Below, piece by piece: positions 1-17,398 of a stretch of DNA of 37,635 nt. The notes under the pieces are model-generated. The model made no database searches. It had not been told where the DNA came from and was given only the letters and a program-made list of their open reading frames with translations. Origin of the DNA: a virus; IMG/VR virus record IMGVR_UViG_3300020469_000108, positions 1 through 37,635 of that record. One strand, 5' to 3'. Made by a program: the position numbers and the translations under genes. Positions within the stretch are counted from its first letter, which is position 1. Each line of letters starts with the position of its first letter.

Positions 1-154
1 CCGGCAGCATGGGTTTTTTATTATTACTTACTGTGCCTTATTTCTACACCTGGCACCTGGCATCCTGGAGAGATCCGGCAGCAGCCTGGCAGCCTAAAGT
101 TGACCAGGGCAGCACCAGGGTAGACCAGGGAAACGCCAGGATAAATCCGCAGCT
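1..154. repeat. Left copy of imperfect terminal direct repeat
   Basis: Positions 1-154 recur at 37471-37635. The first 109 bases match with one substitution (G77 versus A37547). A second substitution lies at 110/37580. The right copy then has an extra 11-bp unit and one more substitution before both copies converge through aaacgccaggataaat. This is what a T7-like phage with terminal redundancy would give, but copies from one virion should be identical, so the differences may come from adjacent genomes in a concatemer, population variants or sequencing error. The element is crowded with CCTGG (49, 56, 64, 85) and CCAGG (104, 115, 125, 136) words. A role in packaging or concatemer processing is inferred. 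Confidence 0.85.
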
Positions 155-163
155 GACTCCAGG
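104..163. repeat. Helically phased CCAGG iterons in the terminal repeat
   Basis: CCAGG starts at 104, 115, 125 and 136, a spacing of 10-11 bp, and again at 159. The units read as variants of ACCAGGGYAGC. The 16-mer ccaggataaatccgca occurs at about 137 and again at 159. In the right terminal copy there is one more unit, with starts at 37574, 37585, 37596, 37606 and 37617. One-turn spacing suggests a row of protein sites on one face of the helix. Which protein binds them (terminase, replication or transcription factor) cannot be read from the sequence. Confidence 0.6.
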
Positions 164-208
164 ATAAATCCGCATTAAAACTTTTTTTTATTTTTTTTTA
201 AAAAAGAC

Positions 209-230
209 TTGACATCAGTTATTAGATGTA
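209..230 (+). promoter_or_regulatory. Left-end promoter-like element (TTGACA ... GATGTA)
   Basis: A perfect sigma70 -35 hexamer TTGACA lies at 209-214, followed after 10 bases by GATGTA (225-230). A matching arrangement, gacTTGACT-N10-GATGTA, lies upstream of the gene at 36899. No good -10 box is present at the standard 17-bp spacing, so the element could be a host-type early promoter with a poor -10 or a binding site for another factor. It precedes the first gene of the early region, where a T7-like phage needs host-polymerase promoters. An A/T-rich tract (181-205) just upstream could serve as an UP element. Confidence 0.4.
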
Positions 231-246
231 AGAAAACAATATTGTA

Positions 247-552
247 ATGATAAAAAACACCATCAAATACAAAGCGGTTCGAGGTTCGAATCCCCACCTT
301 AATTCTCCATTGAAGGATGTTGAATATAAGGTTTATGAAGCAAAAGGAAAGCATGCGAAAGCTTCCTTTTTGAACTGGTTCAGTGACACTTACTTCTCCG
401 GAGAGCATGAGTTCGGCAAGGACTTGGATGCTGATCCTGGGTTTATTGAGTTCGACATCGGACGCTGCCACTACCGGTTGAAAAACAAGAAACCAGCGTT
501 GGTTGGCTTCTTCAAGAATGCGAAGAGAATGCCCATCAATTATTTCGCCTAA
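247..552 (+). CDS. Hypothetical early protein, N-terminus overlaps a tRNA-like sequence
   Basis: A 101-residue ORF, the first on the left arm. I do not recognise a family. Residues 11-18 (VRGSNPHL) are the peptide expected when a tRNA T-arm is translated in this frame, because the DNA at about 272-300 looks like the 3' part of a tRNA gene. The downstream part (KDVEYKVYEAKGK to the end) looks like ordinary soluble protein, rich in aromatic and basic residues. The ATG at 247 lacks a clear Shine-Dalgarno sequence, and the only nearby in-frame alternative is a TTG at 310. If the tRNA-like segment is attP, integration would separate this gene from its upstream region. The start codon is uncertain. 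Confidence 0.55.
   Translation: MIKNTIKYKAVRGSNPHLNSPLKDVEYKVYEAKGKHAKASFLNWFSDTYFSGEHEFGKDLDADPGFIEFDIGRCHYRLKNKKPALVGFFKNAKRMPINYFA
271..308 (+). other. Candidate attP core (tRNA T-arm-like sequence)
   Basis: The stretch contains ggttcgaatcccc, the usual DNA form of a tRNA T-loop and 3' T-stem, followed by acctt and ttctcca, reminiscent of a tRNA or tmRNA 3' end. Upstream sequence does not fold into a complete tRNA, and the 5' side of the T-stem pairs imperfectly, so this is not a functional tRNA gene. Tyrosine-integrase phages often carry such a 3'-end fragment as attP to rebuild the host gene after integration. The integrase is 3.3 kb away, which is farther than usual. The host target cannot be identified here. 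Confidence 0.4.
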
Positions 553-583
553 CAATACTAACTAAAAGAAAGGAACACCACAT

Positions 584-841
584 ATGATTAAAGAAACCGA
601 AACCGGAACTTGCTGCCTCTGTGGCGAAGAGTACCAACACTATGGATGCAATCCGTATCCATTAGGAGATCTATTCGCTGGCGAGAAAGCATGCCACGAA
701 TGCGACAATCAACTAGTCATTCCTACCAGGCTAACCAACATGATCCGGTTTGGAGGAACTGCCGGAGATCCAAAAGAAAACCAACGAATCAGAAAGGAGT
801 ATTTTGCTGCGATGCTAGCTTGTCCAGCAATCAACAACTAA
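584..841 (+). CDS. Small zinc-finger-like protein (two CxxC pairs)
   Basis: An 85-residue ORF with a good ribosome binding site (AAAGGAA upstream of ATG 584). It carries CCLCG near residues 10-14 and CHEC near residues 37-40, spaced to bind one zinc ion, followed by QLVIPTRL. This resembles short phage and plasmid proteins of the pattern CxxCG...NPxPL...CxxCN...VIPxRL, which have no established function that I know of. It may bind DNA or RNA or act as an adaptor protein. The stop codon overlaps the next start by one base (TAATG), which implies translational coupling. Confidence 0.75.
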   Translation: MIKETETGTCCLCGEEYQHYGCNPYPLGDLFAGEKACHECDNQLVIPTRLTNMIRFGGTAGDPKENQRIRKEYFAAMLACPAINN

Positions 842-1191
842 TGGAACTAATCACTGAAAACTACAAAAGCGAAATCATTTACCGGTTGAAGCGAGGGCAG
901 AGCGAGCTCGAAATAAAGCAAGCTCTACCAATGTCGAAATGGCGGTTCTTTGATGAAGCAGCTAAGGAATTTATCGATACCGAGTTTACCTTAGAAAACA
1001 ACATCAAGGCAGTCCGGAAAGGAGTCTATAAAGACCTGGATGAAATGAACGAGTTAATCATTCAAAACTACAAGAAGATCGAGGAGCTGGAGGTTGACCT
1101 GGCTTGTCTTAAATCGGAGAAACGGAAACTCGAAAAGAGGGAACGAGCTCTCCAGGATATAAAGAATACATTAACATTACCCACCATATGA
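841..1191 (+). CDS. Hypothetical protein with C-terminal coiled coil
   Basis: A 116-residue protein starting at ATG 841, which overlaps the stop of the zinc-finger gene as TAATG. The same frame is open upstream to 610, but that part only shadows the previous gene. The N-terminal half (RLKRGQSELEIKQALPMSKWRF, residues about 11-33) looks like a small helix-turn-helix or resolvase-type recognition segment. The C-terminal half, from about residue 65, is a charged helix with regularly spaced I and L (NELIIQNYKKIEELEVDLAC) ending in KRKLEKRERAL, predicted to form a coiled coil. A DNA-binding dimer is plausible. No family is recognised. Confidence 0.7.
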   Translation: MELITENYKSEIIYRLKRGQSELEIKQALPMSKWRFFDEAAKEFIDTEFTLENNIKAVRKGVYKDLDEMNELIIQNYKKIEELEVDLACLKSEKRKLEKRERALQDIKNTLTLPTI

Positions 1192-1436
1192 AAAACCTAA
1201 TCAATGCCCAAAATGTCAAAGCCCTGGCAAAGGACTTTGGCTCGGAGATCTACGAAAAGGATCTCCAGGTCTCAGCTGCTTTCATCGAGCAGACTGCGGA
1301 TCTATTCGCTGCCATAATCAAATACCAGGTGTGCAAGCAAGAGTCACTTGCCGGAACGCTGCGAGAAACCGACTGGGCTAATCTCCAGATCGACGCAGCC
1401 GAAAATCTTATCATTCAACAAAAGGAGGAAGCGTGA
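1188..1436 (+). CDS. Hypothetical protein, 82 aa
   Basis: An acidic, mostly helical 82-residue protein (MKNLINAQNVKALAKDFG..., ending QQKEEA). Its ATG overlaps the previous stop as ATGA and its own stop overlaps the next GTG start, so it sits in a tightly coupled early operon. There is no signal peptide, membrane segment or catalytic motif. No family is recognised. Confidence 0.65.
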   Translation: MKNLINAQNVKALAKDFGSEIYEKDLQVSAAFIEQTADLFAAIIKYQVCKQESLAGTLRETDWANLQIDAAENLIIQQKEEA

Positions 1437-1708
1437 GTTACACTTCGATTGAATATGGTAAAGCCCAGGGATCCAGGTTCGGAGCTTTGATCTTCGAATC
1501 CGGTCTCCTGGTGCCGAGGTCGGAGCGTGCAAAACCTTTGTTTGAACGAGGGCAGCATGTATCCAATAACTACAACAACATGACCAGGGAAGACCAGGCG
1601 GTTGTTTCAAGAGTGTCCGGATACAAACCTGGGAGAAAGATCCAGGAAGAGATCCGGATAGAACAACGAAAGGAGATCCAGGCGAAGACCTGGGAATTAT
1701 TCACATGA
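1433..1708 (+). CDS. Hypothetical basic protein, GTG start
   Basis: A 91-residue basic protein. It starts at GTG 1433, chosen because AAAGGAGGAA lies immediately upstream at ideal spacing, one of the strongest ribosome binding sites in the left arm. GTGA overlaps the previous stop. The C-terminus (KPGRKIQEEIRIEQRKEIQAK, about residues 65-85) is a charged helix. It ends in an ATGA overlap with the next gene. Function unknown. Confidence 0.65.
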   Translation: MSYTSIEYGKAQGSRFGALIFESGLLVPRSERAKPLFERGQHVSNNYNNMTREDQAVVSRVSGYKPGRKIQEEIRIEQRKEIQAKTWELFT

Positions 1709-1917
1709 GCAAACCCTATCAACACTTAGAGTTAAATCTTATTGACGCTATCGATCACGACAAATTTGTTGTCCGGACTAACCTTCCAGGCACCTATTTT
1801 GTTGTTAATCGTGATACCCTGGGAACTTTTCACTCTCAGATTGACTTGAAATTCAACGATTTACACGATCGAGAAAATAAATCGAAAAAAGTTTCAAAAA
1901 CACTTGACATCGACTAA
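1705..1917 (+). CDS. Hypothetical protein, 70 aa
   Basis: A 70-residue ORF coupled to the previous gene by ATGA. The sequence alternates hydrophobic and polar residues (KFVVRTNLPGTYFVVNRDTL), suggesting a small beta-barrel or beta-sheet core with a charged C-terminal tail. No family is recognised. The last codons coincide with a TTGACATC string that resembles the left-end promoter element, probably by chance. Confidence 0.6.
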   Translation: MSKPYQHLELNLIDAIDHDKFVVRTNLPGTYFVVNRDTLGTFHSQIDLKFNDLHDRENKSKKVSKTLDID

Positions 1918-1920
1918 GGG

Positions 1921-2154
1921 ATGGCTGAAGATAATAGCGTAATGAGAAACCACCACGACAAAAAAGTTCTTCCGGCTGCCGGCTTGCTCACTAGTCGAGC
2001 TGCTGCCTTAAGAGTCTTAAATAGTCCAACTACTCCGACTGATTCGGAGCTTCTCGAAATCGTCCGAACCTATGGCACTAAGAGATATTTAAATACTCCG
2101 GCTGAGTCTGCCAGGCTCGCTGCTGCCAAGAGTTTGTTAAACTACCACTACTAA
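1921..2154 (+). CDS. Hypothetical protein, 77 aa
   Basis: A 77-residue ORF starting 3 bases after the previous stop. It has no separate strong ribosome binding site and is presumably translated by reinitiation. The sequence is alanine- and leucine-rich (LLTSRAAALRVLNSP, ESARLAAAKSLLNYHY), consistent with a small helical bundle. No family is recognised. Confidence 0.6.
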   Translation: MAEDNSVMRNHHDKKVLPAAGLLTSRAAALRVLNSPTTPTDSELLEIVRTYGTKRYLNTPAESARLAAAKSLLNYHY

Positions 2155-2173
2155 CTAACGAAAGGAAAAAGTA

Positions 2174-2593
2174 ATGAATAAAAAACACCACCATGACCTT
2201 GAGATCGGAGACATTCTGTCTGCGAGTTGGGGTTATGATCAAACCAACATCAACTACTTCGAGGTTGTTAAGACCAGCCCCAAGTCAGTTGAAGTTCTTG
2301 AAGTCGAGGGTGTCTCGCTTCCGGAACATGACCAAACCGCTAGCGTTGCGACTATGGGTGCCAGGGGCATTCCGGTCGAAGCCTGGAGATCAGCCACCAG
2401 TGACTATCCTAAAAAAGAGGATGGGTCTTGGGATTTCCGAGCCAAGAAAATCTTGAAACCCAAGAGGTGCAAGTCAATCGGAGAGTTCAAAGGCGAGGGC
2501 TACAACTCTCTTCGGATCAAAGATCACATGTACGCCAGGTATGACAAGCCAGGCACTATTAACTACGAAACCCACTGGGCTTATGGACACTAA
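2174..2593 (+). CDS. Conserved-type hypothetical protein (WGYDQTN motif)
   Basis: A 139-residue protein with a good ribosome binding site (AAAGGAAAAAGTA then ATG). Residues 11-25 (IGDILSASWGYDQTN) resemble a hypothetical family I recall from phages and plasmids with GDILxSSWGYDQTNxxFYxV, followed by a basic middle and an aromatic C-terminus (THWAYGH). The function of that family is not known to me. Its stop overlaps the small ORF at 2583. Confidence 0.7.
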   Translation: MNKKHHHDLEIGDILSASWGYDQTNINYFEVVKTSPKSVEVLEVEGVSLPEHDQTASVATMGARGIPVEAWRSATSDYPKKEDGSWDFRAKKILKPKRCKSIGEFKGEGYNSLRIKDHMYARYDKPGTINYETHWAYGH

Positions 2594-2717
2594 GAAAAAA
2601 GAAACTAAAGAAGAAAAACAAAAGCGTTTCGAGAGCATTGCCAAAACTCACCAGGAAAAGGTGTTGTTGAAAGCAGCTCTCAAAGCTGGGAAGATCCAAT
2701 TCATAACCATCAACTAA
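2583..2717 (+). CDS. Small charged ORF, 44 aa
   Basis: An ATG at 2583 opens a 44-residue ORF overlapping the end of the previous gene by 11 bases. It is highly charged (MDTKKKETKEEKQKRF at the start) and predicted helical, then LLKAALKAGKIQF. It fills the otherwise empty gap before the gene at 2729, and the overlap is typical of this arm. There is no homology I can name. It is plausibly real because of packing rather than family evidence. Confidence 0.45.
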   Translation: MDTKKKETKEEKQKRFESIAKTHQEKVLLKAALKAGKIQFITIN

Positions 2718-2728
2718 AGGAAAAAGTA

Positions 2729-3073
2729 ATGAGTAAAAATAAAACACCACTAAAAATAGACACTGGATTTGAATCCATGTGGCTCGATTATGATCCGGAG
2801 TCGTACAAAACGATTTCCGGAGCAGCTAAGGGTTTGTATAAAGCCCTTATTAAATTCCTCATCGATACTGGCTGCTCAAAAGAGGCTGCCGAGCGTGAGG
2901 TAATTATTCGGACTCCGGAGGAGAATGCGAACTTCGGTTATTCGAAAGCCTGGTATGTTGCCTTTGAGGGTGGCATTTACGAGTGGGCTCATGCAGCGAG
3001 CTGGTCAATCACCGGCTCCTGGGGATATAGCGAGCCCTACCACTCATTCGACTTAACCTTCTACGAGAACTAA
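2729..3073 (+). CDS. Conserved-type hypothetical protein, 114 aa
   Basis: A 114-residue protein with a ribosome binding site identical in form to that of the gene at 2174 (AAAGGAAAAAGTA then ATG). The C-terminal half (NFGYSKAWYVAFEGGIYEWA, then EPYHSFDLTFYE) matches a pattern I recall from phage hypothetical proteins with WxVxWExGPYxWA and EPYxSFDLxFYE. No catalytic role is known to me. It may be an early host-takeover protein, inferred from location only. Confidence 0.7.
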   Translation: MSKNKTPLKIDTGFESMWLDYDPESYKTISGAAKGLYKALIKFLIDTGCSKEAAEREVIIRTPEENANFGYSKAWYVAFEGGIYEWAHAASWSITGSWGYSEPYHSFDLTFYEN

Positions 3074-3075
3074 TT

Positions 3076-3459
3076 ATGATCGAATTATTCCTAGCAATCG
3101 CAATCGTTGAAAGTAACCTGGATCCCACTGCGGTGGGAGACCAGGGCAGTTCTGTTGGTATTGTTCAAATCTCGGTGCCAGTCATCCAGGATGTAAATTG
3201 TTTCTATGATGGCTGCACTTACAAACCGGAGGATCGAACCAATATCGACAAGAGCTACGAGATCTTCGTAAAGTACATCAACTACTGGGGTTCAGTTTAT
3301 GAACGAAAGACCGGTAAAGAGTTGACTAACGAAGTTCGATCTCGAATATGGAACGGAGGTGCCTATGGTTGGAAAGCAGCTGAAGGCACCAACAAGAAAA
3401 AGAACCTGGATGTTTACTGGAGTAAAGTCCGGCACCATCTAACAAAAGGAAGTAAATGA
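3076..3459 (+). CDS. Lysozyme-like lytic transglycosylase (probable endolysin)
   Basis: A 127-residue single-domain protein. IVESNLDPTAVGD with E12, followed by SSVGIVQIS, is the ES...G-xx-QI signature of the SLT/goose-lysozyme fold, where the glutamate is the catalytic acid. Downstream RIWNGG and a tyrosine fit the later conserved motif of the family. It should cleave the glycan strand of peptidoglycan between MurNAc and GlcNAc. There is no convincing signal peptide, although the N-terminus IELFLAIAIV is hydrophobic. In T7 the SLT domain is part of the ejected gp16, but here the gp16-like protein has no such domain. The enzyme may serve lysis, with a holin, or entry if packaged. Confidence 0.75.
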   Translation: MIELFLAIAIVESNLDPTAVGDQGSSVGIVQISVPVIQDVNCFYDGCTYKPEDRTNIDKSYEIFVKYINYWGSVYERKTGKELTNEVRSRIWNGGAYGWKAAEGTNKKKNLDVYWSKVRHHLTKGSK

Positions 3460-3593
3460 CTGATCCAAAAACCACTACCCTAACTAAGGCAGAAAGGAAG
3501 AAATTCCACTATGCCTGGTTAGCGTTTTGGAGACGCAGAAAAAAGAAACCACCACATGTAAGTAAAAACCGCTTGCATGTGTTTGATATTTAA
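3456..3593 (+). CDS. Small basic ORF, 45 aa
   Basis: An ATG overlaps the stop of the lysozyme-like gene (ATGA) and opens a 45-residue basic ORF containing WLAFWRRRKKKPPH near residues 21-34. It fills the space up to the integrase leader. The short aromatic stretch followed by a basic cluster could be membrane- or nucleic-acid-associated. Support is coupling and position only. Confidence 0.45.
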   Translation: MTDPKTTTLTKAERKKFHYAWLAFWRRRKKKPPHVSKNRLHVFDI

Positions 3594-3599
3594 TATAAA
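3573..3599 (+). promoter_or_regulatory. Possible sigma70-like promoter of the integrase
   Basis: TTGCAT (3573-3578) and TATAAA (3594-3599) are separated by 15 bp, in the only A/T-rich gap in this arm, just ahead of the integrase ATG at 3611. The spacing is shorter than optimal. A separate promoter for the integrase is biologically plausible, but this call is weak. Confidence 0.25.
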
Positions 3600-3610
3600 A
3601 GGAAACCATA

Positions 3611-4471
3611 ATGAATACTAAAACTAAAACTAAGACACTTGCCGAAGCAGCGAACGCCACATTCAAAGCTCGTTGGATCGGCACTGCGAGTGCTCGTTCC
3701 AGGGAAGCCCAGGTGCGTTGCATTGTTAAGTATTTCGGATCCAAGACTCCGATTACTAAGATCACTACCAAGTCAGTTCTCGACTATGTGAAATACCTAG
3801 AGGATAAAGTTGGTAATGATGTCGAGACCAGGAACAAAAAGATCAGTGCGATCTCGGTTATCCTGGATCATTCCTATACCGAGGGATGGATTGATTCTCT
3901 TCCAAGATTGAAGGGACGCAAGTCAGCCAATAACCAGTGTAAGGAATACATATCGAAGGAAGAGGAAAACATCATTCTTCCTTTCATGCAAAATCATGAC
4001 CTGGAGAGCATGAGATACTTTGGAGACTTTTGGGCATGGTCGGTTGATACCGGACTAAGACCTAGTGAGTCTCGGAGGATTAAAACCCAGGACATCTACA
4101 AAGAACCAGGTATTGGGTTTGTTGTTCGTATTAACCAAACCAAAACTAATGACTGGAGAGTTATACCACTGACTCAGCGAGCTTATGAGATCTTCATGAT
4201 GCAAAACCAGGAGCAGCCCTGGGCAGCCATGAACGAAAGTCGCATTAAGCATGCCTGGAATCGAGTAAGGGAGTTTCGCAACCGCCAGGGAGACCGGAAC
4301 TACAAACCATATTTGACCAGGCACACTACCGGATCCAGGTTGCTTCAGAACCGAGTTGACATAACTTTGGTTCGTGATGTACTCGGACATTCTAACATTC
4401 AGACCACCCTTCGCTATGCTAAGAACTCTCCGCAGCACCTTGCAGAAGCGATGAAAACTTTGAATGTATGA
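3611..4471 (+). CDS. int: Tyrosine integrase
   Basis: A 286-residue site-specific recombinase. Residues 1-100 form the helical SAM-like core-binding domain. The catalytic domain holds R150 (GLRPSE), a lysine in the beta-hairpin (TKTNDWRVIPL, K178), box II YLTRH with R237, H260 (LGHSNIQTT) and nucleophile Y269 (RYAK). The first histidine of the usual HxxR is replaced by Y234. Other members tolerate variation there, so activity is still likely. AAGGAAACCATA precedes the ATG. Placement directly upstream of the RNA polymerase matches integrase-bearing marine T7-like phages. It would integrate the genome at a tRNA or tmRNA gene, with the candidate attP near 271-308. I recognise no repressor or excisionase nearby. 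Confidence 0.95.
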   Translation: MNTKTKTKTLAEAANATFKARWIGTASARSREAQVRCIVKYFGSKTPITKITTKSVLDYVKYLEDKVGNDVETRNKKISAISVILDHSYTEGWIDSLPRLKGRKSANNQCKEYISKEEENIILPFMQNHDLESMRYFGDFWAWSVDTGLRPSESRRIKTQDIYKEPGIGFVVRINQTKTNDWRVIPLTQRAYEIFMMQNQEQPWAAMNESRIKHAWNRVREFRNRQGDRNYKPYLTRHTTGSRLLQNRVDITLVRDVLGHSNIQTTLRYAKNSPQHLAEAMKTLNV

Positions 4472-4563
4472 GAACTATTAAACTATTAACCAAAGAGCTA
4501 GCAAAGATGAAATATGGAAAGCCAAAGCCCAAGCCAAGACCAAAACCAAAAAAGAACAAGTAG
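4468..4563 (+). CDS. Small Lys/Pro-rich ORF, 31 aa
   Basis: ATGA overlap with the integrase stop opens a 31-residue ORF ending in KYGKPKPKPRPKPKKNK. It is strongly basic, like a nucleic-acid-binding tail. It overlaps the ORF at 4514 in another frame, so at least one of the two may be untranslated. The coupling and the unusual composition favour mention, but there is no independent support. Confidence 0.35.
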   Translation: MRTIKLLTKELAKMKYGKPKPKPRPKPKKNK

Positions 4564-4735
4564 TATCCTAAGCCCTAAAGTTGAGACGATCTTAACTGAT
4601 GGGCTTAATAGTATGCGTAAAGCTTGTGAAGCATTGAGTGATCAGAATAAGATACTCAACAAAGACATCGAGAAGCTTAAACAAAAGTGCTCTCGATTTG
4701 AGGAGAAATTAAGAATTAACAACATCGAGGTTTAA
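4514..4735 (+). CDS. Hypothetical protein, coiled coil
   Basis: A 73-residue ORF immediately before the RNA polymerase. The N-terminus is S/Q/K-rich. From about residue 30 it is a charged helix with heptad-like spacing (LNKDIEKLKQKCSRFEEKL), predicted to be a coiled coil. The ribosome binding site for ATG 4514 is poor, and an internal methionine at residue 34 is an alternative start that would remove the overlap with the 31-aa ORF. Function unknown. A regulator of the polymerase is possible by position only. Confidence 0.5.
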   Translation: MESQSPSQDQNQKRTSSILSPKVETILTDGLNSMRKACEALSDQNKILNKDIEKLKQKCSRFEEKLRINNIEV

Positions 4736-4740
4736 AATAA

Positions 4741-7167
4741 ATGCCGAACAAATTGGAACAGAAAGAATTAAATAAAGACATGGAGACTTTGGGTCTCGGT
4801 CGTTATCGTTCCAGGAATGAATCAGCAAAGAACCGAGATGCAGAACTAGAAACAAAATATGGACAACGACTCATGCGAGCTGCACTACCGGCATACGCAC
4901 AGTCAATTCAAACCTGGTTAGAGAAAGTAAATTCTCAAAGATCAAAAGCCAGGTATCAAATAGATCTAAACGAGCTGCCGGAGAAACTGGTAGCTTTTGT
5001 TTCTATCAAAGCGATACTCGATTCCATTACCAAAAAGAAATCCCTGGCTTCAGTCAGTCATTATGTTGGTGCCAGGATCGAGGACGAATGTCGCTGCGTA
5101 TTTTTATTAGAGAACAACGAACAAAAAGGTGGTGGTATTCTATTAGGAGCCAAGCGGAGAAAAGGTAAGTCAGCTAAGCTCCGGCATATTAGATCCAGCA
5201 TGAAGAAGGAGTCCGGCAAGAAGCTAATGGATCCCTGGAACTCCTGGTCTCATCGAGACAAATTAAACTGTGGATTACACCTGGTAGAGTTGTTGCGTGT
5301 TAGCACAAATCTAATCGAGTATGTTTATATTACAGACAATAGGAGATCCAAAAGACCTACCAGGTATGTAACTGCAACTAAGGATACCCTGGAGTGGATT
5401 GAGGATTACAACACTAACCGAGAGCTCTTGGAACCCTTTTGGCTGCCAACAATTACACTACCGGATCCCTGGGTAAACTGCTGGGAAGGTGGATACGATA
5501 CGACAGATACATCGCTGCCTAGGCTGCCCTTTATAAAAACAAATAACATGAATTATCTGCGAGGGATCCAGGGTAAACTCCAGGAGCCGATGGACGCAGT
5601 GAACTTTATTCAACAAACACCCTGGGCAATAAATGATAAGGTATTAGATGTCATGAAACATTGCTGGGAGAACTCGATACCTATTGGAGATCTACCCAGC
5701 CGAGAGGACGAGTCATTACCTCCGGTGCCAACAGACTTTGAAACTAATCCAGCAGCCAATAAACTTTGGAGACAAATGGCAGCCAGGGTTTACAATCATC
5801 GAGCATCAACAATATCCAGGAGATTACTTGTAGCTAAGATCTTATATGTAGCGGACAAGCTCCAGGGTAATAGATTTTTTTATCCTTCCCAGGTAGATTT
5901 TAGAGGACGAGTCTACAACATCCCAGCGTTCCTGGGGATCCAGGGAGCCGATATGAGTAAAGGATTGCTGCACTTCGAAAGACCGATGCGGATCAAGAAT
6001 CATGAGCAAGCTCGGTGGCTCGCTATCCAGGGAGCAAACACCTGGGGAAATGATAAAGTTACCCTGGACGAACGAGTCGAGTGGGCATGTAAGTTTTCAA
6101 ACACTGCTGACCGGATAGCTTGCGATCCAACTAAGAACTTGGAGTGGACTGAAGCCGAGGATCCCTGGCAGTTTCTTGCCTGGTGCCTGGAGTGGGCAGA
6201 GTATGCTGCCACCGGTAAAGTTAAATCCAGGCTGCCGGTAAACATGGACGCATCGAACAATGGGGTTCAGATTCTTAGCATTCTCATGCGAGACTTTGAT
6301 GGTGGTGTTGCTACTAATGTAATGCCTACTGACTATCCTCATGATATTTACCAGGTATGCTGCGATCGTGTGTTGGAGTTACTTTTCGAGGATAGAGAAA
6401 AAGGAAACATCATTGCCGGTGATTGGATTTCATTTGGAGTAGATAGGAAATGCCTAAAGAGACCTTGCATGGTTTTCCCTTACTCCGGCACCTTCTATTC
6501 TTGCCGAGCTTATGTTGATGATTGGTACCAGGACAAGATCCGGAAGACTCAAAAGACAACACCATTTTCCGAGGATATGAGACATCGAGCCACCGGATAC
6601 CTTTCCAAGTTAGTTTGGAGAGCGATCAACGAGATCCTGGTAAGACCAAAAGAATGTATGACCTGGTTGCAGCATGTTGCTCATGCAGCATCTAAGAAAA
6701 AGAAACCACTACAATGGGTTACTCCTACTGGATTCCCAGTGCTCCAGGATTACCGGAAGACTCAGACTCAGAATGTAGCCAGCCATATCGATGGACAAGC
6801 TACCTGGGTAAAGTGGCATAAGGAGACATCGATGTTGGATCCGAGGCGTTGCAAGGCAGCAGTCTCGCCCAACCTGGTACACTCCCTGGATGCTTCTGCC
6901 CTGGCTAGAACTATTTGTAAATGCAGCGAACATTCAATCTATGATTATGCGATGGTACATGACTCGTATGGCACCCATAGCGTGAATGCTCCTATCATGG
7001 GAGAGATGCTGCGTGAAGCTTTCATTGAGATATTCTCTAAAGATCTGTTGCTGGACTTCAAACATCAAGTTGAAGCTCAGCTACCAGGAGTTACCCTGGA
7101 CGATCCTCCGGAGTATGGCTCGATGGATATAAACGAAATAAGAAAAAGTACTTATTTCTTCTGTTAA
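4741..7167 (+). CDS. T7-type single-subunit DNA-directed RNA polymerase
   Basis: An 808-residue polymerase (T7 gp1 is 883) that transcribes the middle and late phage genes. All catalytic motifs are present. Motif A is VDFRGRVY with D386 (T7 D537). Motif B is RKCLKRPCMVFPYSG with K573 and Y581 (T7 K631, Y639). Motif C is VHDSYGTH with H740 and D741 (T7 H811, D812). NLVHSLDASAL matches the conserved T7 NFVHSQDGS segment. Serine replaces the glycine after the motif B tyrosine. The start follows a 5-base gap after the small coiled-coil gene. The likely cognate promoters are the three GGACTAATATG elements at 12590, 15417 and 36056. Confidence 0.97.
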   Translation: MPNKLEQKELNKDMETLGLGRYRSRNESAKNRDAELETKYGQRLMRAALPAYAQSIQTWLEKVNSQRSKARYQIDLNELPEKLVAFVSIKAILDSITKKKSLASVSHYVGARIEDECRCVFLLENNEQKGGGILLGAKRRKGKSAKLRHIRSSMKKESGKKLMDPWNSWSHRDKLNCGLHLVELLRVSTNLIEYVYITDNRRSKRPTRYVTATKDTLEWIEDYNTNRELLEPFWLPTITLPDPWVNCWEGGYDTTDTSLPRLPFIKTNNMNYLRGIQGKLQEPMDAVNFIQQTPWAINDKVLDVMKHCWENSIPIGDLPSREDESLPPVPTDFETNPAANKLWRQMAARVYNHRASTISRRLLVAKILYVADKLQGNRFFYPSQVDFRGRVYNIPAFLGIQGADMSKGLLHFERPMRIKNHEQARWLAIQGANTWGNDKVTLDERVEWACKFSNTADRIACDPTKNLEWTEAEDPWQFLAWCLEWAEYAATGKVKSRLPVNMDASNNGVQILSILMRDFDGGVATNVMPTDYPHDIYQVCCDRVLELLFEDREKGNIIAGDWISFGVDRKCLKRPCMVFPYSGTFYSCRAYVDDWYQDKIRKTQKTTPFSEDMRHRATGYLSKLVWRAINEILVRPKECMTWLQHVAHAASKKKKPLQWVTPTGFPVLQDYRKTQTQNVASHIDGQATWVKWHKETSMLDPRRCKAAVSPNLVHSLDASALARTICKCSEHSIYDYAMVHDSYGTHSVNAPIMGEMLREAFIEIFSKDLLLDFKHQVEAQLPGVTLDDPPEYGSMDINEIRKSTYFFC

Positions 7168-7200
7168 ATATAAATCCATGAATGGAAAGGACATAACAAA

Positions 7201-7803
7201 ATGAACATAACAACACCAAAAGGCATCGCCTTCTACCCAAGATTAGCTACTCCGGATACGGAGTGGAACAAGGATGGAGTTTACTCTTGTAAGCTGCACC
7301 TTTCAGAAACTGATTACAAAGCTTTCGAGCTTCAAATCAACGAGATAGTAAACAAAGCTTACAAAGCTGAATGCGTAAAGCATGGCAAGGAGTCCATCAA
7401 GCTCTCCGATGTTAAGAAACCACTCAGAGTTACCGACAACGGAGACTTTGAGATTTTCGGAAAACAAGTCGCAGCTAAGGATACCAGGAAAGGAAGACTG
7501 GAGTTCAAAGTAAGTGCGTTTGACGCTAAAGGAAATAAACTAGAAGAGATGCCAAATGTAGGTAGTGGATCTACCCTCAAGATGGCTCTCGAAATCTACC
7601 CTTACTTCACTGAGTTGAATGGGTTTGGATATAGTCTTCGATTGAAGGCAGTTCAGATCTTAGATCTAGTAGAATATAATACTGGAGACGCTAACTCATT
7701 TGGATTCACCGCTGAGGAAGATGGATACCGAGGATCCGGAGAATCATTCAATGAGACATTCGAAAAAGAAGAACCCAAAAAAGACATCCAGGCACCCTTT
7801 TAG
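7201..7803 (+). CDS. Single-stranded DNA-binding protein (T7 gp2.5-like)
   Basis: A 200-residue protein with a strong ribosome binding site (GGAAAGGACATAACAAA then ATG). The OB-fold-like body (TPKGIAFYPRLATPDTEW... GYSLRLKAVQIL) matches the gp2.5-type protein of T7-like phages. The acidic tail ending in phenylalanine (FEKEEPKKDIQAPF) is the hallmark that lets gp2.5 contact DNA polymerase and helicase. It coats ssDNA at the fork and aids strand annealing. The 3' end overlaps the endonuclease I gene in another frame. Confidence 0.9.
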   Translation: MNITTPKGIAFYPRLATPDTEWNKDGVYSCKLHLSETDYKAFELQINEIVNKAYKAECVKHGKESIKLSDVKKPLRVTDNGDFEIFGKQVAAKDTRKGRLEFKVSAFDAKGNKLEEMPNVGSGSTLKMALEIYPYFTELNGFGYSLRLKAVQILDLVEYNTGDANSFGFTAEEDGYRGSGESFNETFEKEEPKKDIQAPF

Positions 7804-8143
7804 GAGTGGACTGGAAGCATACATTGCAGCCACCCTCACAAGGGGTGGTTGCTTATATGAATATGAAACACTAAGGCTACCTTATGAAAAAACACATCAC
7901 TATGTACCGGACTTCATCTTACCAAATGGAATCATCATCGAAGCGAAGGGTCGATGGCTTTCCTCAGATAGGACGAAGCATCTCCGAGTTCGTGAATCGC
8001 ATCCGCACCTGGATATACGATTTGCATTTCAACAACCGAACAACAAACTCTCCAAAAGATCCAAGACAACTTACTCCGACTGGTGTGAGAAGAATGGTTT
8101 CCTTTGGTGTGGTAAGGATATACCGGAAGAATGGCTGATTTAG
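7751..8143 (+). CDS. Endonuclease I, Holliday-junction resolvase (T7 gp3-like)
   Basis: With the start at ATG 7751 the protein has 130 residues (T7 gp3: 149). The catalytic set is intact: E22 (FRSGLE), D54 (VPDF), E64 and K66 (IIEAKG), equivalent to T7 E20, D55, E65 and K67. The end (KDIPEEWL) also matches T7 (KLIPAEWI). It cuts branched DNA, resolving junctions and helping degrade host DNA. I chose 7751 because GGAG lies 9 bases upstream. The frame is open to a TTG at 7700, and ATG 7721 is possible but badly spaced. The first 53 bases overlap the gp2.5-like gene. Confidence 0.93.
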   Translation: MRHSKKKNPKKTSRHPFRSGLEAYIAATLTRGGCLYEYETLRLPYEKTHHYVPDFILPNGIIIEAKGRWLSSDRTKHLRVRESHPHLDIRFAFQQPNNKLSKRSKTTYSDWCEKNGFLWCGKDIPEEWLI

Positions 8144-9714
8144 AGTCAGCACTTACGCATCAACCTTGCCCTTCGTGCGGAAGCAGCGATGCCCTGGTAG
8201 TTAATACCGATGGCAGCACTAAATGCTTTTCGTGTTCGTCATTTACACCCTCAACTGGAAAGACATTGAAAATTACACCACAAAAAACAAATACAATATT
8301 CATCGAAGGAGAGTTTATGGACATCCCTTCGAGAAAATTATCCAAAGAAACTTGTAAAAGGTTTGGATATTTTATTGGCAACCAAGCCGGTAAACCAGTC
8401 CATGTAGCAAACTACCGAAACATGGAAGGCGGTTTAGTTGCTCAGAAGTATAGATTCAAAGATAAAACTTTCAGCTGCGAAGGCAGCCCAGGGTTTTTCT
8501 TTGGGCAGCACTTATGTCCTAATGGAGGCAAGCAGCTGGTAATCACTGAAGGCGAGATAGATTGCTTGAGTGTTTCCCAGGTATTCGAAGGTAAGTGGCA
8601 TGTTGTGTCGCTGCCCTCCGGTGCTCAGTCTGCTAAGAGTGCTTTTAGGAAACACTTCGAATGGCTCAATAGTTTCGATAAAGTCGTGCTGATGTTTGAT
8701 AGCGATGACCAGGGACAAAAAGCTATTGAAGAAGTGGCTCACATATTGCCAGCCGGTAAGACCAGGGTTGCTAAGATCCCAGCTAAGGATCCGAATGAAA
8801 TGCTCCTGGACGGAAAGGGTAAAGAGATTGTTTATTCAATATATAACTCTCAGCCCTGGACTCCGGATGATATTGTTTGTGGATCCAACTTGTATGATCG
8901 ACTCCTGGAGATAAAGAACATTGAATCCATTCCTTACCCATACACTGGTTTGAATGAGAAAACCAGGGGTATTCGTAAATCCGAGATTGTAACTTTTGCT
9001 GCCGGATCCGGTATAGGTAAGAGTCAGATCTGCCGAGTGATTGCTCACCATATATTAACAACAACAGAAAAGAAAGTTGGATACATTGCCCTGGAGGAAA
9101 GCCTGGAGAGAACTGCCCAGGGTATCCTAAGTATCGAGATGAACAAGCAGCTTCACCTGGAGCCCTTTGAATACTCAGATGAGTTCGGAGCTGCTTTCGA
9201 AAAGACGCTAGGATCCGGAAGGTTCTTTCTGTATGATCACTGGGGCAGCACAAGTTCGGAGAATCTCCTGGGAAGGATCCGATACATGGCTAAAGTCCTG
9301 GATGTTGAGTATGTTGTTCTTGATCACTTGTCTATTGTCGTTTCCGGAATCGGAGATGGTAATGAGAGAAGAATGATAGACAACACGATGACGAAGCTCC
9401 GCAGCTTAGTTGAAGAAACTAAGATTGGATTGATCCTGGTTTCTCATTTGAAGAGACCGGAAGGTCGAGGACACGAAGAAGGAGCAGTGACAAGCTTAGC
9501 TCAGCTCCGAGGATCAGCCGGCATTGCCCAGCTATCAGACCTCGTTATCGGACTAGAACGAAACCAGCAAGACAACGAGAACATGAACCAAACTGTTGTC
9601 CGAGTTTTAAAGAACCGCTTTAGTGGCGAGACCGGAATAGCTTGTGCTCTCCGTTTTTGCCAGGATACTGGAGCATTAAATGAATACACACTAACCACAG
9701 AAAACCCATTCTAA
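8131..9714 (+). CDS. DNA primase-helicase (T7 gp4-like)
   Basis: A bifunctional 527-residue replicative enzyme. The N-terminal zinc finger uses C13, C16, C32 and C35 for recognition of the priming site. The TOPRIM primase domain shows ITEGEIDCLS and MFDSDDQGQKA, the acidic metal-binding residues. The C-terminal RecA-like helicase has Walker A GSGIGKS with K297, then EESLERTAQG and the Walker B segment VVLDHLSIV. As in T7, it should form a hexamer that unwinds DNA and primes lagging-strand synthesis with the phage DNA polymerase. It overlaps endonuclease I by 13 bases and abuts the polymerase (ATG within CTAATG). Confidence 0.97.
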   Translation: MADLESALTHQPCPSCGSSDALVVNTDGSTKCFSCSSFTPSTGKTLKITPQKTNTIFIEGEFMDIPSRKLSKETCKRFGYFIGNQAGKPVHVANYRNMEGGLVAQKYRFKDKTFSCEGSPGFFFGQHLCPNGGKQLVITEGEIDCLSVSQVFEGKWHVVSLPSGAQSAKSAFRKHFEWLNSFDKVVLMFDSDDQGQKAIEEVAHILPAGKTRVAKIPAKDPNEMLLDGKGKEIVYSIYNSQPWTPDDIVCGSNLYDRLLEIKNIESIPYPYTGLNEKTRGIRKSEIVTFAAGSGIGKSQICRVIAHHILTTTEKKVGYIALEESLERTAQGILSIEMNKQLHLEPFEYSDEFGAAFEKTLGSGRFFLYDHWGSTSSENLLGRIRYMAKVLDVEYVVLDHLSIVVSGIGDGNERRMIDNTMTKLRSLVEETKIGLILVSHLKRPEGRGHEEGAVTSLAQLRGSAGIAQLSDLVIGLERNQQDNENMNQTVVRVLKNRFSGETGIACALRFCQDTGALNEYTLTTENPF

Positions 9715-11516
9715 TGAATATGACTAATACATTTTTCGCAGATATAGAAACTAACGCCATCGAGGATTGGAGCACTTTAGAGGATCTTGAAACCATCCAC
9801 TGTATTTGTGCTCTTGACCAGGATGAAAAAGAATACCGATGGAGCACTGATGCTGGAAACATCGATGAAGGGATCCAGGCTTTAACCAACTGTGAGAACC
9901 TGGTGTTCCATAATGGCGTAAGCTTTGATTACCCAGCTCTCGCAAAACATACTGGGTTCCGACATAACAATGTTGCAGATACCCTGGTAATGAGTCGCTG
10001 CATTTATCCGGATCTAAAAAGAGATGACCATCGAGCTGGTAGAAATACAAAGATCGTAGGCAGCCATAGTCTCAAAGCCTGGGGAGAAAGACTAGGGTTT
10101 CACAAAGGAGACTTTGGAGAGGATACTGACTGGTCAACCTGGTCAATCGAGATGGAAGACTACTGCCTCCAGGACTGCCGAGTTACTAAGAAGCTATTCG
10201 ATCATCTCATATCTAAGGAGCCCTCTAAGAATATGTTATCCCTGGAACACCGGTTCGCTAGTCTCATGAGAAGACAAGAGTTCTATGGGTTTCCTTTTAA
10301 TGTTGATGCTGCTGAAAAACTAGCAGCGGATCTATGTGTAAAAAGAGTAGAGCTCAGAGACAGACTTGAGAAAGTATTCGAACCGACAGTAGTTCCTATG
10401 AAATCCTTTTGGTATGTTAACGCTGCCGGAGATAAGTTTCCATCAAAGAAAGCTATGAAGGAAGTAGGATACAAGGATGATCAGATCCGCAAGGGAGAAA
10501 GAAAAACAAAAACAATACCCTTTAATCCTGGATCCAGGGATCAGATCTCCGAGAGACTTATGGCTAAAGGCTGGAAACCAGCAGCTTATGAAGGTAAGAG
10601 ACCGCAGATAAACGAAGGAGTTCTAAAGCAGATTGGATCCGAGGAGTCCGAAGCTCTCCTGGAATACCTAACAGTTCAGAAGAGACTTGGACAACTAGCC
10701 GAAGGTAAGCAAGCCTGGCTCTCCCTGGAAAAGAAGGGAAAGATTCATGGACAAGTCTTAACTAACGGAACAATTAGTGGAAGAGCTAGTCATAGAAATC
10801 CCAATGTTGCCCAGGTGCCAGGTGTTGGATCACCCTATGGAGCAGAGTGTCGTGCTTTATTCACTCCCCTGGAAGGCAGCGTCCTGGTAGGAGCTGATGC
10901 TTCCGGACTAGAGCTCCGGTGTTTAGCTCATTACCTGGCAGCCTTCGATGGTGGACGCTATGCTGAGATTGTTGTTGATGGAGATATTCATACTGCAAAT
11001 CAGAAAGCTGCCGGATTAGAGGAAAGATCCCAGGCAAAGACTATGGCGTATGCCCTAATCTATGGTGCCGGAAATGAGAAACTAGGTCAGATTATTGGTG
11101 GTGGATCTAAAGCCGGTAAAGCTTTGAGGGAAAAATTCATCAACAATACTCCAGGTATTAAGAAACTGTTCGATGCGGTAGATAACGCAGTCAAGACCAG
11201 GGGTTCCCTGGTAGGACTGGATGGTCGCATTCTACCATGCAGATCTCCACACTCCGCTTTGAATCTCCTTTTACAGAGTGCCGGTGCGGTAATAATGAAG
11301 ATGACCAGTATCCAATTCAACGAGTTAGCGAGACATCCACACACACTGCATGCTCATGTACACGATGAGATTCAGTTCAGCTGCCGAGAAGAACATGCTG
11401 AAGAGTTAGGAAATACATTTATTGAAGCTATAAAAACAACTGAAAAGATCCTGGGATTTCACTGCCCACTTGATGGTGAGTTTAAGATCGGATCCAACTG
11501 GAAGGAAACCCACTAA
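9714..11516 (+). CDS. Family A DNA polymerase with 3'-5' exonuclease
   Basis: A 600-residue T7 gp5-type replicative polymerase. The exonuclease domain has D10 and E12 (ADIETN), NGVSFDYPAL and the YCLQDCRVT motif. The polymerase domain has motif A GADASGLELR (D395), motif B RSQAKTMAYALIYGAG and motif C HVHDEIQF (D551, E552). All catalytic residues are present, so proofreading and synthesis are both expected. It is shorter than T7 gp5 (704), and whether it uses host thioredoxin as processivity factor cannot be judged here. This gene is a good example of the CCWGG bias, with 23 CCAGG/CCTGG words by hand count. Confidence 0.97.
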   Translation: MNMTNTFFADIETNAIEDWSTLEDLETIHCICALDQDEKEYRWSTDAGNIDEGIQALTNCENLVFHNGVSFDYPALAKHTGFRHNNVADTLVMSRCIYPDLKRDDHRAGRNTKIVGSHSLKAWGERLGFHKGDFGEDTDWSTWSIEMEDYCLQDCRVTKKLFDHLISKEPSKNMLSLEHRFASLMRRQEFYGFPFNVDAAEKLAADLCVKRVELRDRLEKVFEPTVVPMKSFWYVNAAGDKFPSKKAMKEVGYKDDQIRKGERKTKTIPFNPGSRDQISERLMAKGWKPAAYEGKRPQINEGVLKQIGSEESEALLEYLTVQKRLGQLAEGKQAWLSLEKKGKIHGQVLTNGTISGRASHRNPNVAQVPGVGSPYGAECRALFTPLEGSVLVGADASGLELRCLAHYLAAFDGGRYAEIVVDGDIHTANQKAAGLEERSQAKTMAYALIYGAGNEKLGQIIGGGSKAGKALREKFINNTPGIKKLFDAVDNAVKTRGSLVGLDGRILPCRSPHSALNLLLQSAGAVIMKMTSIQFNELARHPHTLHAHVHDEIQFSCREEHAEELGNTFIEAIKTTEKILGFHCPLDGEFKIGSNWKETH

Positions 11517-12247
11517 TGAAACTTATAATCGACGGAGATATGATTGCTTACCGAGCAGCGTTCGGTAGTGAACATGAAATTAAATGGGATGATGATGTCT
11601 TTACATTACATCTCAACATGCACGAAGCCCTGGATAGAGTAGATTCTATCATCGAGGCATCGTTGAAGAAACTAGGAGCTAAGGAATATGTTACTGTTTT
11701 TTCTGATAAAAAGAACTTTAGGCATGACCTGGATCCCAGCTACAAAGCTAATCGTAAGGATCGCAGAAAGCCCCTGGGTCTATCAACTGTAATAGATCAG
11801 ATGTTCTTGTTTTGGAATGGCATGAAAATCAACAACCTGGAAGCTGATGATGTTATTGGTATTCTATGCAGCAAGCATAAGGATCACATCGCAGTATCCG
11901 GAGACAAGGATTTCCACACTATACCTGGTAAGTTCTACAACTTTCTGAAAGACGAGATGTATGATACAACAGTAGATGAAGCGAATAAGTTCCATCTAAT
12001 CCAAACATTGGCTGGCGATACTGCCGATGGTTATCCTGGGGTTAAAGGCGTAGGCATGAAGACTGCGGAAAAACTCCTGGACAAAGAAGGTTATACCTGG
12101 GATGCAGTAGTTAAGATCTACGAGTCTAAAGGTATGACGGAAGACGCTGCCCTGGTAACTGCAAGACTTGCTTATATATTGAGGCACCAGGACTTTAACC
12201 TTAAAACTAAAAAGATGAAATCATTATGGAAACCAACGACAACTTAG
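11516..12247 (+). CDS. 5'-3' exonuclease (T7 gp6-like, FEN/PIN fold)
   Basis: A 243-residue nuclease. IIDGDMIAYRAA at the N-terminus, LEADDVIGIL and AVSGDKDFHTIPG supply the acidic metal ligands. LAGDTADGYPGVKGVGMKTAEKLL is the helix-hairpin-helix segment typical of phage 5'-3' exonucleases. It removes RNA primers and degrades host DNA. The start overlaps the polymerase stop (TAATG), and the end overlaps the next gene by 22 bases. Confidence 0.95.
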   Translation: MKLIIDGDMIAYRAAFGSEHEIKWDDDVFTLHLNMHEALDRVDSIIEASLKKLGAKEYVTVFSDKKNFRHDLDPSYKANRKDRRKPLGLSTVIDQMFLFWNGMKINNLEADDVIGILCSKHKDHIAVSGDKDFHTIPGKFYNFLKDEMYDTTVDEANKFHLIQTLAGDTADGYPGVKGVGMKTAEKLLDKEGYTWDAVVKIYESKGMTEDAALVTARLAYILRHQDFNLKTKKMKSLWKPTTT

Positions 12248-12585
12248 ATTTACCGGATACCGGAGAGAGAACCCAGTTTGACACTGGTGCGGTTAGAGAC
12301 GCAATGGAGGGCAAAGGTCTTCCATCGCTGCTGCCGATAGACGCTATGCGAGCAGCTAGTAAACGATTCGAAGCTGGAGCTTTGAAGTATGGGAGAAACA
12401 ACTGGCAAAAGGGGATCCCACTCTCCAGGTATGTTGATGCTCTTTACCGGCACCTATGGGCATACATGGAAGGAGAAGACTCCGAGGATCATGGTGGTGC
12501 TATCGTATGGAATGCAATGTGCCTGGTTCAAACCCAGGAGTGGATTAAACAAGGGAAACTCTCAGATGAACTGGATGATCTCTAA
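12226..12585 (+). CDS. dATP/dGTP diphosphohydrolase N-terminal domain-like protein
   Basis: A 119-residue protein. FDTGAVRDAMEGKGLPSLLP followed by AASKRFEAGALKYGRNNWQKG, LSRYVDALYRHLWAY and GEDSEDHGG..WNAMCLVQ matches the phage family recalled as DUF5664 or dATP/dGTP diphosphohydrolase N-terminal domain. Conserved acidic and histidine residues are consistent with an all-alpha nucleotide pyrophosphatase fold. It probably adjusts nucleotide pools during replication. There are no purine-modification genes that would make it part of a Z-genome pathway. The family match is from memory of the pattern. Confidence 0.75.
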   Translation: METNDNLDLPDTGERTQFDTGAVRDAMEGKGLPSLLPIDAMRAASKRFEAGALKYGRNNWQKGIPLSRYVDALYRHLWAYMEGEDSEDHGGAIVWNAMCLVQTQEWIKQGKLSDELDDL

Positions 12586-12589
12586 CTTC

Positions 12590-12602
12590 GGACTAATATG
12601 AG
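12590..12602 (+). promoter_or_regulatory. Phage RNA polymerase promoter candidate 1 (GGACTAATATG)
   Basis: GGACTAATATGAG lies in the 17-bp gap after the nucleotide hydrolase, ahead of the virion gene block. The 11-mer GGACTAATATG recurs at 15417 and 36056, also intergenic and on the + strand. It resembles the T7 promoter core GACTCACTATAGGG in position of GACT, TATR and following purines. The upstream TAACTTC matches TAATTTA at the second site. It probably drives the gp7.3-like, portal and scaffold genes. Confidence 0.6.
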
Positions 12603-12803
12603 ATGAGCACTGCTGATAACGATAGAGTTCCCCCAATATCTCCGGCTATAATTGAATACCTGGAGCGTATCTTTCCGATGAAAGACTACGATAAATATGA
12701 GGATCAGAGTGATATTCGCTTTTATAGTGGATGTCGCCATGTTGTTAATTTTGTTCGATCTCAATTTGAACAACAAAACGAAACAATAATAGATAAGGAA
12801 TAA
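12603..12803 (+). CDS. Hypothetical protein, 66 aa
   Basis: A 66-residue ORF just downstream of the promoter-like element. It begins MSTADNDRVPPISPAIIEYLERIFPMKDYD and continues in a helix with C and H (SGCRHVVNFVRSQFEQQ). T7 has small virion-associated genes in this interval (6.5 to 7), but I see no sequence that identifies one. Function unknown. Confidence 0.6.
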   Translation: MSTADNDRVPPISPAIIEYLERIFPMKDYDKYEDQSDIRFYSGCRHVVNFVRSQFEQQNETIIDKE

Positions 12804-12810
12804 TAATATT

Positions 12811-13041
12811 ATGTGTATGAGCGTAAAAGCACCCAGGATACCACCACCTCCTCCTCCTCCAGTATATGCACCGCCCCCAGCTCCAACAGAGCGAGCTAAG
12901 CGGACTATCAACCCTAGGCTAAAGCGTAGGGCGATGGCTAGAAAGTCCGGAGGGTCAAGAGGTCTACGGATCAAGAGAGGTCAGAACTCCACTACTCTTA
13001 ATGTAGGTGGACAGACCACTGGCTCTAGTCTTAATGCTTAA
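12811..13041 (+). CDS. Small proline-rich virion protein, T7 gp7.3-like
   Basis: A 76-residue protein with MCMSV at the N-terminus, a run of prolines (IPPPPPPPVYAPPPAP, about residues 10-25) and a basic, glycine-rich end (RRAMARKSGGSRGLRIK, then GGQTTGSSLNA). T7 gp7.3, in the same place before the portal gene, also ends in a basic RKxARxGxKSL and Gly/Ser-rich tail, and it is a virion protein involved in tail assembly and ejection. This assignment rests on position and tail composition, not on strong similarity. Confidence 0.6.
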   Translation: MCMSVKAPRIPPPPPPPVYAPPPAPTERAKRTINPRLKRRAMARKSGGSRGLRIKRGQNSTTLNVGGQTTGSSLNA

Positions 13042-13071
13042 AGTTAAGCGATCTATAAGTAGGATTTAAAC

Positions 13072-14637: not shown

Positions 14638-14640
14638 ATT

Positions 14641-15417
14641 ATGGCAGAACTAAATAAAGTTGTGATCAACGACACACAAGAAGGCACTAATATGTCTCTT
14701 GAACAAGAAGCAGCTGCAATCGATGAGAAGGCAGCAACACAGAACCAGGGGGAAACTCCTATTCTTGAGCAAACTACTGAGACTCAGAACAGTGGCTCCC
14801 AGGAGAACGAAAGACCGGAATGGTTGGATAATAAATTCAAGAGTCCGGAAGATCTAGCAAAGGCATATGCCGAACTTGAAAGAAAACAAGGACAAGAAAA
14901 TGTCCAGGAAACAGAAGTATCCGATAATGATGCTATCAATTCAGCTAGTGAATATTATGCAGAGTATGGCGAACTTGGGTCAGACCAGTATGCTGCACTT
15001 GCTGCTAGCGGTATCAGCCAGGAAATGGTCGATACATATATCCAGGGTCAAGAGTCGATCCTGGCTACTGAAGTCCAGCAGATACAAGCTGGAATCGGTG
15101 GAGCTGAGAACTATGAAGCAATGACTCAATGGGCAACGAGTAATATCTCAAATGAAGAGATTGAAGCTTATGATGCTATTGTTGAGTCCGGATCTTCGGA
15201 TCAAGCTAAGATGGCGGTTGAAGGGATGTACGCCAGGTATGTTGCTGCTAACGGCAACCAACCTACACTCACCCAGGGTTCAACTACTGGATCTGCGGTG
15301 CAGCCTTTCAATTCATCTGCTCAGATAACACAAGCTATGAGAGATCCTCGATATAAGATGGATCCGGCTTATCGTGCTGATGTTGAAAAGCGTTTAGCAA
15401 GGTCTAATGTAATTTAG
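14641..15417 (+). CDS. Capsid assembly scaffolding protein, T7 gp9-like
   Basis: A 258-residue acidic, Q/E-rich protein. RPEWLDNKFKSPEDLAKAYAELE (residues about 58-80) is the typical motif of gp9-type scaffolds, and the C-terminal basic segment (MRDPRYKMDPAYRADVEKRL) is the usual capsid-binding helix. It directs procapsid assembly around the portal and leaves before packaging. In T7 the capsid gene follows immediately. Here about 2.5 kb of accessory genes intervene. Confidence 0.92.
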   Translation: MAELNKVVINDTQEGTNMSLEQEAAAIDEKAATQNQGETPILEQTTETQNSGSQENERPEWLDNKFKSPEDLAKAYAELERKQGQENVQETEVSDNDAINSASEYYAEYGELGSDQYAALAASGISQEMVDTYIQGQESILATEVQQIQAGIGGAENYEAMTQWATSNISNEEIEAYDAIVESGSSDQAKMAVEGMYARYVAANGNQPTLTQGSTTGSAVQPFNSSAQITQAMRDPRYKMDPAYRADVEKRLARSNVI

Positions 15418-15428
15418 GACTAATATGG
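15417..15428 (+). promoter_or_regulatory. Phage RNA polymerase promoter candidate 2 (GGACTAATATGG)
   Basis: The 12-mer GGACTAATATGG starts at the last base of the scaffold stop codon and lies before the ATG at 15436. It shares the 11-mer with sites at 12590 and 36056, and the flank TAATTTA with TAACTTC of the first site. It probably boosts transcription of the accessory cassette and the major capsid gene up to the terminator at 19030. Confidence 0.6.
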
Positions 15429-15435
15429 AATAACT

Positions 15436-17229: not shown

Positions 17230-17242
17230 AATTTTATAAATT

Positions 17243-17398
17243 ATGGCAAAGATATGCTCGAAAGGAATTGCGTGGGCAAAGCGTAAATTCGACAAATACC
17301 CATCTGCTTACGCTAACATGGCTGCAAGTAAGTACTGTAAGGATCCTAAGTATGGTAAGGGTAGATCTAAGTTAAAGATGAAGAAGAAGAAGAAATGA
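17243..17398 (+). CDS. Small basic protein (CSKGIAWAKRKF motif)
   Basis: A 51-residue protein starting at ATG 17243 and ending in a lysine run (KMKKKKK). MAKICSKGIAWAKRKFDKYP followed by SAYANMAASKYC resembles short conserved proteins that I recall beside capsid genes in marine phages. The two cysteines and strong positive charge suggest binding to nucleic acid or a structural role. It overlaps the next start by ATGA. Confidence 0.65.
   Translation: MAKICSKGIAWAKRKFDKYPSAYANMAASKYCKDPKYGKGRSKLKMKKKKK

Follow-up and report, generated by a model that had tools for sequence, protein, structure and literature searches.

It is well known that phages rid their genomes of restriction sites. At the ends of the T7 genome lie arrays of CCTAAAG repeats, after the large terminase gene and at the left end, both inside the terminal repeat and next to it, which are non-coding and made of short units that follow each other every 10-13 bp. 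Where prokaryotic genomes have been surveyed for Type II sites, over-representation was uncommon and slight, with Kr about 1.4-1.5 and most cases being CCGG in Helicobacter (PMC4687349). Short palindromes that are spread over whole genomes, coding sequence included, are known from cyanobacteria as HIP1 (GCGATCGC) and alternative HIPs such as GCSGC, RCCGGY and GGCGCC, which are described together with Elhai's HIP model in PMC4390886. The defence system DISARM is reportedly not set off by a sequence but repressed by methylation, and DNA without its methylation sites is reportedly targeted more strongly (PMC9142583); one DISARM system has CCWGG as its methylation mark (PMC12926258).

Here we analysed the record IMGVR_UViG_3300020469_000108, classed as linear in IMG/VR, over its whole length of 37,635 bp, which we call the window. 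As is usual in phages, it avoids certain short words, about 17 of them, and its relatives avoid CCWGG, but the striking signal in the window is the enrichment of this classic restriction site.

Genome and features of the window

The gene content and gene order are those of a marine T7-like phage. The genes comprise an integrase, a single-subunit RNA polymerase, SSB, primase/helicase, DNA polymerase and exonuclease, followed among the structural genes by portal, scaffold, capsid, tail and internal virion proteins, with the large terminase subunit (TerL) close to the right end (Table 1). Among named records, those closest to it, at about 49-69% protein identity, come from uncultured MedDCM phages and from phages of Roseobacter and Pelagibacter; queries with the integrase and with the last ORF found no closer relatives. 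A TerL scan of genomes for a host gave as its sole match a phage contig in a marine archaeal MAG, with no usable host link.

Table 1. Coordinates of the features discussed in the text
Feature	Position	Strand	Basis and remarks
End repeat, left copy	1..154	.	154-165 bp in common with 37471-37635
Tandem array, period 7 (CACCTGG)	47..68	+	TRF; CCTGG at 49, 56, 64
Tandem array, period 10-11 (about ACCAGGGTAGC)	102..163	+	TRF; CCAGG at 104, 115, 125, 136
Major capsid gene	17911-19011		
Small terminase subunit (TerS), probable, 78 aa	34085..34321	+	position (directly upstream of TerL) and size only
Large terminase subunit (TerL)	34321..35991	+	phrog_38, E 7e-113
End repeat, right copy	37471..37635	.	
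Right copy of period-11 array	37573..37626	+	five CCAGG, one unit more than left copy
CCWGG set, 361 sites	1..37635	.	46-60 expected; 313 inside genes analysed

Several other features were noted. A sulfotransferase-like gene lies amid the virion genes (16609-17229) and was matched by none of 50,697 phage records. The large protein at 19089-22598 contains 84-bp and related repeats at 19785-21356, that is, units of 28 residues, and similar-looking repeats are present in the relative G005. A tRNA T-arm-like string, GGTTCGAATCCCC, occurs at 275-300 within the ORF at 247-552 and is a putative remnant of an attachment site (attP); tRNA and Rfam scans of the window found nothing.

CCWGG across the genome and in relatives

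The earlier note on this DNA had presented CCWGG as the building unit of the terminal repeat, a local description that is right in part, the feature itself extending over the whole genome. Base composition predicts 46 copies and dinucleotide shuffles gave 59.6 +/- 6.8, against the 361 observed, so that chance can be rejected as the source of the excess; the word has accumulated about eightfold (O/E 7.8), to a density of about 9.6 per kb. It is enriched in all three reading frames, and also in non-coding DNA outside the ends (18 copies, 2.7 expected). On the + strand CCAGG (207) and CCTGG (154) are intermixed along the genome, with no strand bias. Spacings between neighbouring sites cluster on multiples of three, following the reading frames, and not on 10.5; helical phasing of the word over the whole genome was therefore rejected.

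Codon usage alone was rejected as well, as a synonymous-codon shuffle gave 64 copies where 313 are present in the genes used. A stricter null, in which proteins and codon usage were preserved and 19 avoided words were forbidden, raised the expectation from 66 to 125. The same null gave 136 for GCWGC (187 observed) and 137 for CCGG (177 observed), and the excess of these two words is largely a by-product of avoidance. The context of tryptophan codons supports a pull on CCWGG itself: where Ala, Ser, Thr or Pro precedes Trp, the pair is written NCC-TGG in 34 of 41 cases. NCC accounts for 23% of codons of this kind, and the other choices before Trp are freely allowed, none of them being an avoided word. 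In a penalised model of synonymous choice over all 4- and 5-mers, CCWGG ranked first at +5.27, or about +3.5 net, CAGG being -1.75; the next words reached +2.0 and +1.4.

Genes differed in their use of the word: the share of possible CCWGG sites taken up was 62% for early and middle genes, 45% for late genes and 12% for the major capsid gene, which has just two CCWGG (1.8 per kb, compared with about 10). Codon selection acting on strongly expressed genes may account for these differences.

The avoided words are of four to six bases and are absent or nearly so, and their list is far longer than in most relatives. It includes ACGT (0 against 141), CCCG (0 against 162), GGCC, GCGC and CGCG (0 against 81 each), ACAGC and TCAGG (0 against 61), GGWCC and others.

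CCWGG was counted in 237 related loci, each 6 kb or longer, and its O/E was below 0.1 in 72% of them, with a median of zero and a maximum of 1.6. The window was matched solely by L003 (O/E 8.7), a 5.2-kb contig that is 96.5% identical to it, and retention of the sites was measured over the 5.2 kb of this one pair. All 51 CCWGG sites of the window were kept in L003, where rates by codon position predict 42.6 (P 2e-4); when the four extra sites of L003 are counted, 51 of 55 were kept with 45.8 expected (P 0.05). The control words GCWGC, CCGG, AGCT, TCGA and CTAGG had no such retention between the two sequences, and GATC and GGATC had weak signs of it. The complete retention of CCWGG and its absence in the control words argue that the sites are being held now. 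The enrichment of CCWGG, its word-specificity, its retention and its independence of reading frame are thus established.

The synonymous-choice model was also applied to 15 other genomes or loci, and no word exceeded +1 except in L128 (CCSGG +2.2, GCSGC +1.5) and L172 (ACTGG +2.8, merely offsetting avoidance of CCAG). L128 (IMGVR_UViG_3300032225_000838) is a mirror image of the window, as CCSGG (100 against 17) and GCSGC (66 against 17) are abundant in it, and CCWGG and GCWGC are absent (0 against 22 each). Non-palindromic words are avoided in L010, L016 and L172: CCAG is missing from L010 (0 against 54), and CCAG followed by A, C or G is avoided in L172. Such avoidance would point to non-palindromic restriction specificities. 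In the literature that we searched, no report of phages rich in CCWGG was found.

The end repeat and its arrays

The two copies of the end repeat differ by two substitutions and one 11-bp unit over their 154-165 bp. The simplest reading of them is a direct terminal repeat whose copies were assembled from two variants of the strain, which would put the physical ends of the genome here; alternatively, a circular map may have been assembled with overlapping ends. Two tandem arrays lie in the repeat, and the TRF unit of the period-11 array is about ACCAGGGTAAC. The positions given earlier for CCTGG and CCAGG at the left end were all correct, namely those in Table 1, a fourth CCTGG at 85, beyond the period-7 array, and a last CCAGG at 159, in a 23-bp repeat. 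In the right copy CCTGG is found at 37519, 37526, 37534 and 37555, and the five CCAGG (37574, 37585, 37596, 37606, 37617) are 11, 11, 10 and 11 bp apart, in agreement with the spacing of 10-11 bp reported for them. The same spacing, claimed for the whole left CCAGG group, holds for its first four sites (11, 10, 11), and the last gap is 23 bp.

The earlier note had further described sites that switch orientation, with one-turn spacing on either side of the switch. CCWGG is a near-palindrome, so that merely the centre base changes, and the gaps on the CCTGG side are 7, 8 and 21 bp. Since TRF delimits two adjoining tandem arrays, the switch is the border between the period-7 and the period-11 array. 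Each run consists of tandem copies, so that its spacing and its centre base do not count as independent observations. When nine sites were placed at random in 115 bp, at least three gaps of 10-11 bp arose in 6% of trials and at least four in about 1%. The unusual aspect of the end array is its density of CCWGG: this is the densest place in the genome, with nine sites in 115 bp where the genome's own rate predicts 1.1 (P about 2.5e-6 under that rate). Both ends also form the densest windows of 10-11 bp repeats in the genome, the 11-bp repeat signal reaching z = 21 in 37380-37635. An exact DNA pattern taken from the end repeat had no match in viral contigs.

To compare the array with those of relatives, identical 5-mers 10-11 bp apart were counted in 300-bp windows of their genomes. 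The genome's best or near-best signal fell in the TerL-distal or left-end region in the window, in CRP-114 (18, and 11 elsewhere), CRP-125 (10 and 6), HTVC168P (24 and 9) and HTVC019P (21 and 10), and in the partial genomes L006, L082, L016, L046 and L010. The signal was weak in L065, and CRP-171, HTVC121P and L018 had none in the end region by this test. T7 itself was borderline (8 and 7), with its CCTAAAG repeats nonetheless visible in the end region. The repeated words differed from phage to phage. Because the spacing recurs in end regions and the sequence does not, the array belongs to a known kind: on sequence and location, we take it to be a T7-type terminal short-repeat region, the counterpart of the T7 CCTAAAG repeats, written with CCWGG and placed in the non-coding stretch that holds the terminal repeat and the concatemer junction in T7-like phages. 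It differs from the T7 arrays in its CCWGG-based unit, in the period-7 array joined on, and in that its word is found over the whole genome and not locally.

Explanations for the accumulation of CCWGG

We favour, at a probability of roughly one in three, a reading drawn by analogy with DISARM in which methylated CCWGG would be a self mark against a methylation-repressed defence, both the host and the methylation being putative. Methylation, a host enzyme, a defence and a benefit to the phage are the parts of it that we infer. The host would most likely have a cytosine methyltransferase for CCWGG; the methylated sites would repress a defence that is held off by methylation and not triggered by a site; and more CCWGG would give better camouflage. 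The word is densest at the ends, which would be the first part of the incoming DNA to be inspected, and the gain is perhaps greatest there. It is a more tentative proposal that the lineage rewrote its genome, largely synonymously, with the self-identity methylation site of its host, turning a restriction target into camouflage. DISARM self-marking offers a parallel in the mark itself, CCWGG, and in a defence repressed by methylation (PMC12926258, PMC9142583), whereas the link of this phage to a host or to a DISARM locus is a proposal of ours. Against the self mark, none of the proteins scanned from the window was recognised as a C5-methyltransferase, which weakens a phage-encoded enzyme as a candidate, and PF00145 was absent from the records of 12 relatives. 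A further point against it is the opposite pressure seen in the 72% of related loci that are nearly without CCWGG. Moreover, phased end arrays occur in relatives without CCWGG, so that the end cluster need not concern methylation.

The main rival is a repair drive similar to that proposed for HIP1, in which mismatch repair in the host, and so in the phage, is biased in connection with a CCWGG methyltransferase and turns near misses into CCWGG, no benefit of the site being needed; we consider it improbable, if still a serious contender. As in the HIPs, a palindrome is in excess genome-wide, beyond what codon usage (64) or avoidance (125) yields against 313 in the genes, coding and non-coding DNA are enriched alike, and some near misses are depleted (PMC4390886). 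Near misses in the outer base are nearly gone, with TCAGG at 0 against 61, TCTGG at 3 against 61, ACAGG at 4 against 61 and GCAGG at 5 against 46. However, ACTGG (78) and GCTGG (76) are not depleted, an asymmetry between RCAGG and RCTGG that would not be expected if a palindrome were repaired symmetrically. Host repair would, besides, act on a T7-like phage for little time. The cyanobacterial HIPs differ further in belonging to cells and not to a phage and in their density of about 0.5-2.5 per kb; here no associated methyltransferase was recognised in the proteins scanned, and close relatives are nearly free of the word. Nor is the classical VSP signature, a loss of CTWGG, present (CTAGG 60 and CTTGG 59, with 61 expected), and Dcm/Vsr VSP repair, which has the same over-represented site, was rejected on this count.

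The array could instead be a putative nucleoprotein site for terminase cutting, as the earlier note had suggested. Part of that suggestion stands, as short repeats 10-12 bp apart recur in the end regions of most of the T7-like relatives compared, and the array here is non-coding and sits between TerL and the early genes, inside the shared end repeat. CCWGG and its change of centre base are, however, unsupported as a terminase-specific signal, for the word is not conserved among relatives and is genome-wide here, the left half of the array is not helically spaced, and three relatives have no 10-11 bp signal. This explanation, which we regard as unlikely, would account at most for the local array and not for the other ~340 CCWGG sites.

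A still less likely explanation holds that many restriction-forbidden words, perhaps from successive hosts, squeeze G+C into the few words that remain permitted, one of which is CCWGG. The long list of avoided words is consistent with it, as are the rise in expected CCWGG from 66 to 125 when they are forbidden, which covers most of the GCWGC and CCGG excess, and the mirror phage L128. Yet 125 is far below 313, so that avoidance of other words alone was rejected; the excess before Trp exists in spite of freely allowed alternatives, and no word is strongly enriched in the relatives whose lists of avoided words are long.

Least probable is a short protein-binding or Chi-like signal, for instance a shield from host exonuclease, which would fit the genome-wide spread, the retention and the peak in density at the ends, the points of entry for exonucleases, but a near-palindrome of only five bases would make a short binding site, and an oriented Chi-like signal is weakened by the lack of the strand bias that it needs.

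The part worth following is the accumulation of CCWGG over a whole genome in a clade that has mostly erased it. A classic restriction and methylation site is present at eight times its expected density and is kept between strains, while most of the clade has removed it, which suggests a benefit to this phage from a DNA site of the kind that is usually avoided by viruses. The mirror phage L128, with CCSGG up and CCWGG absent, suggests that the accumulation of a word may not be unique to this phage. If the accumulation is linked to methylation, it would be the trace, spread over the entire genome, of selection for a self mark, or else the first HIP-like word known to us in a phage.
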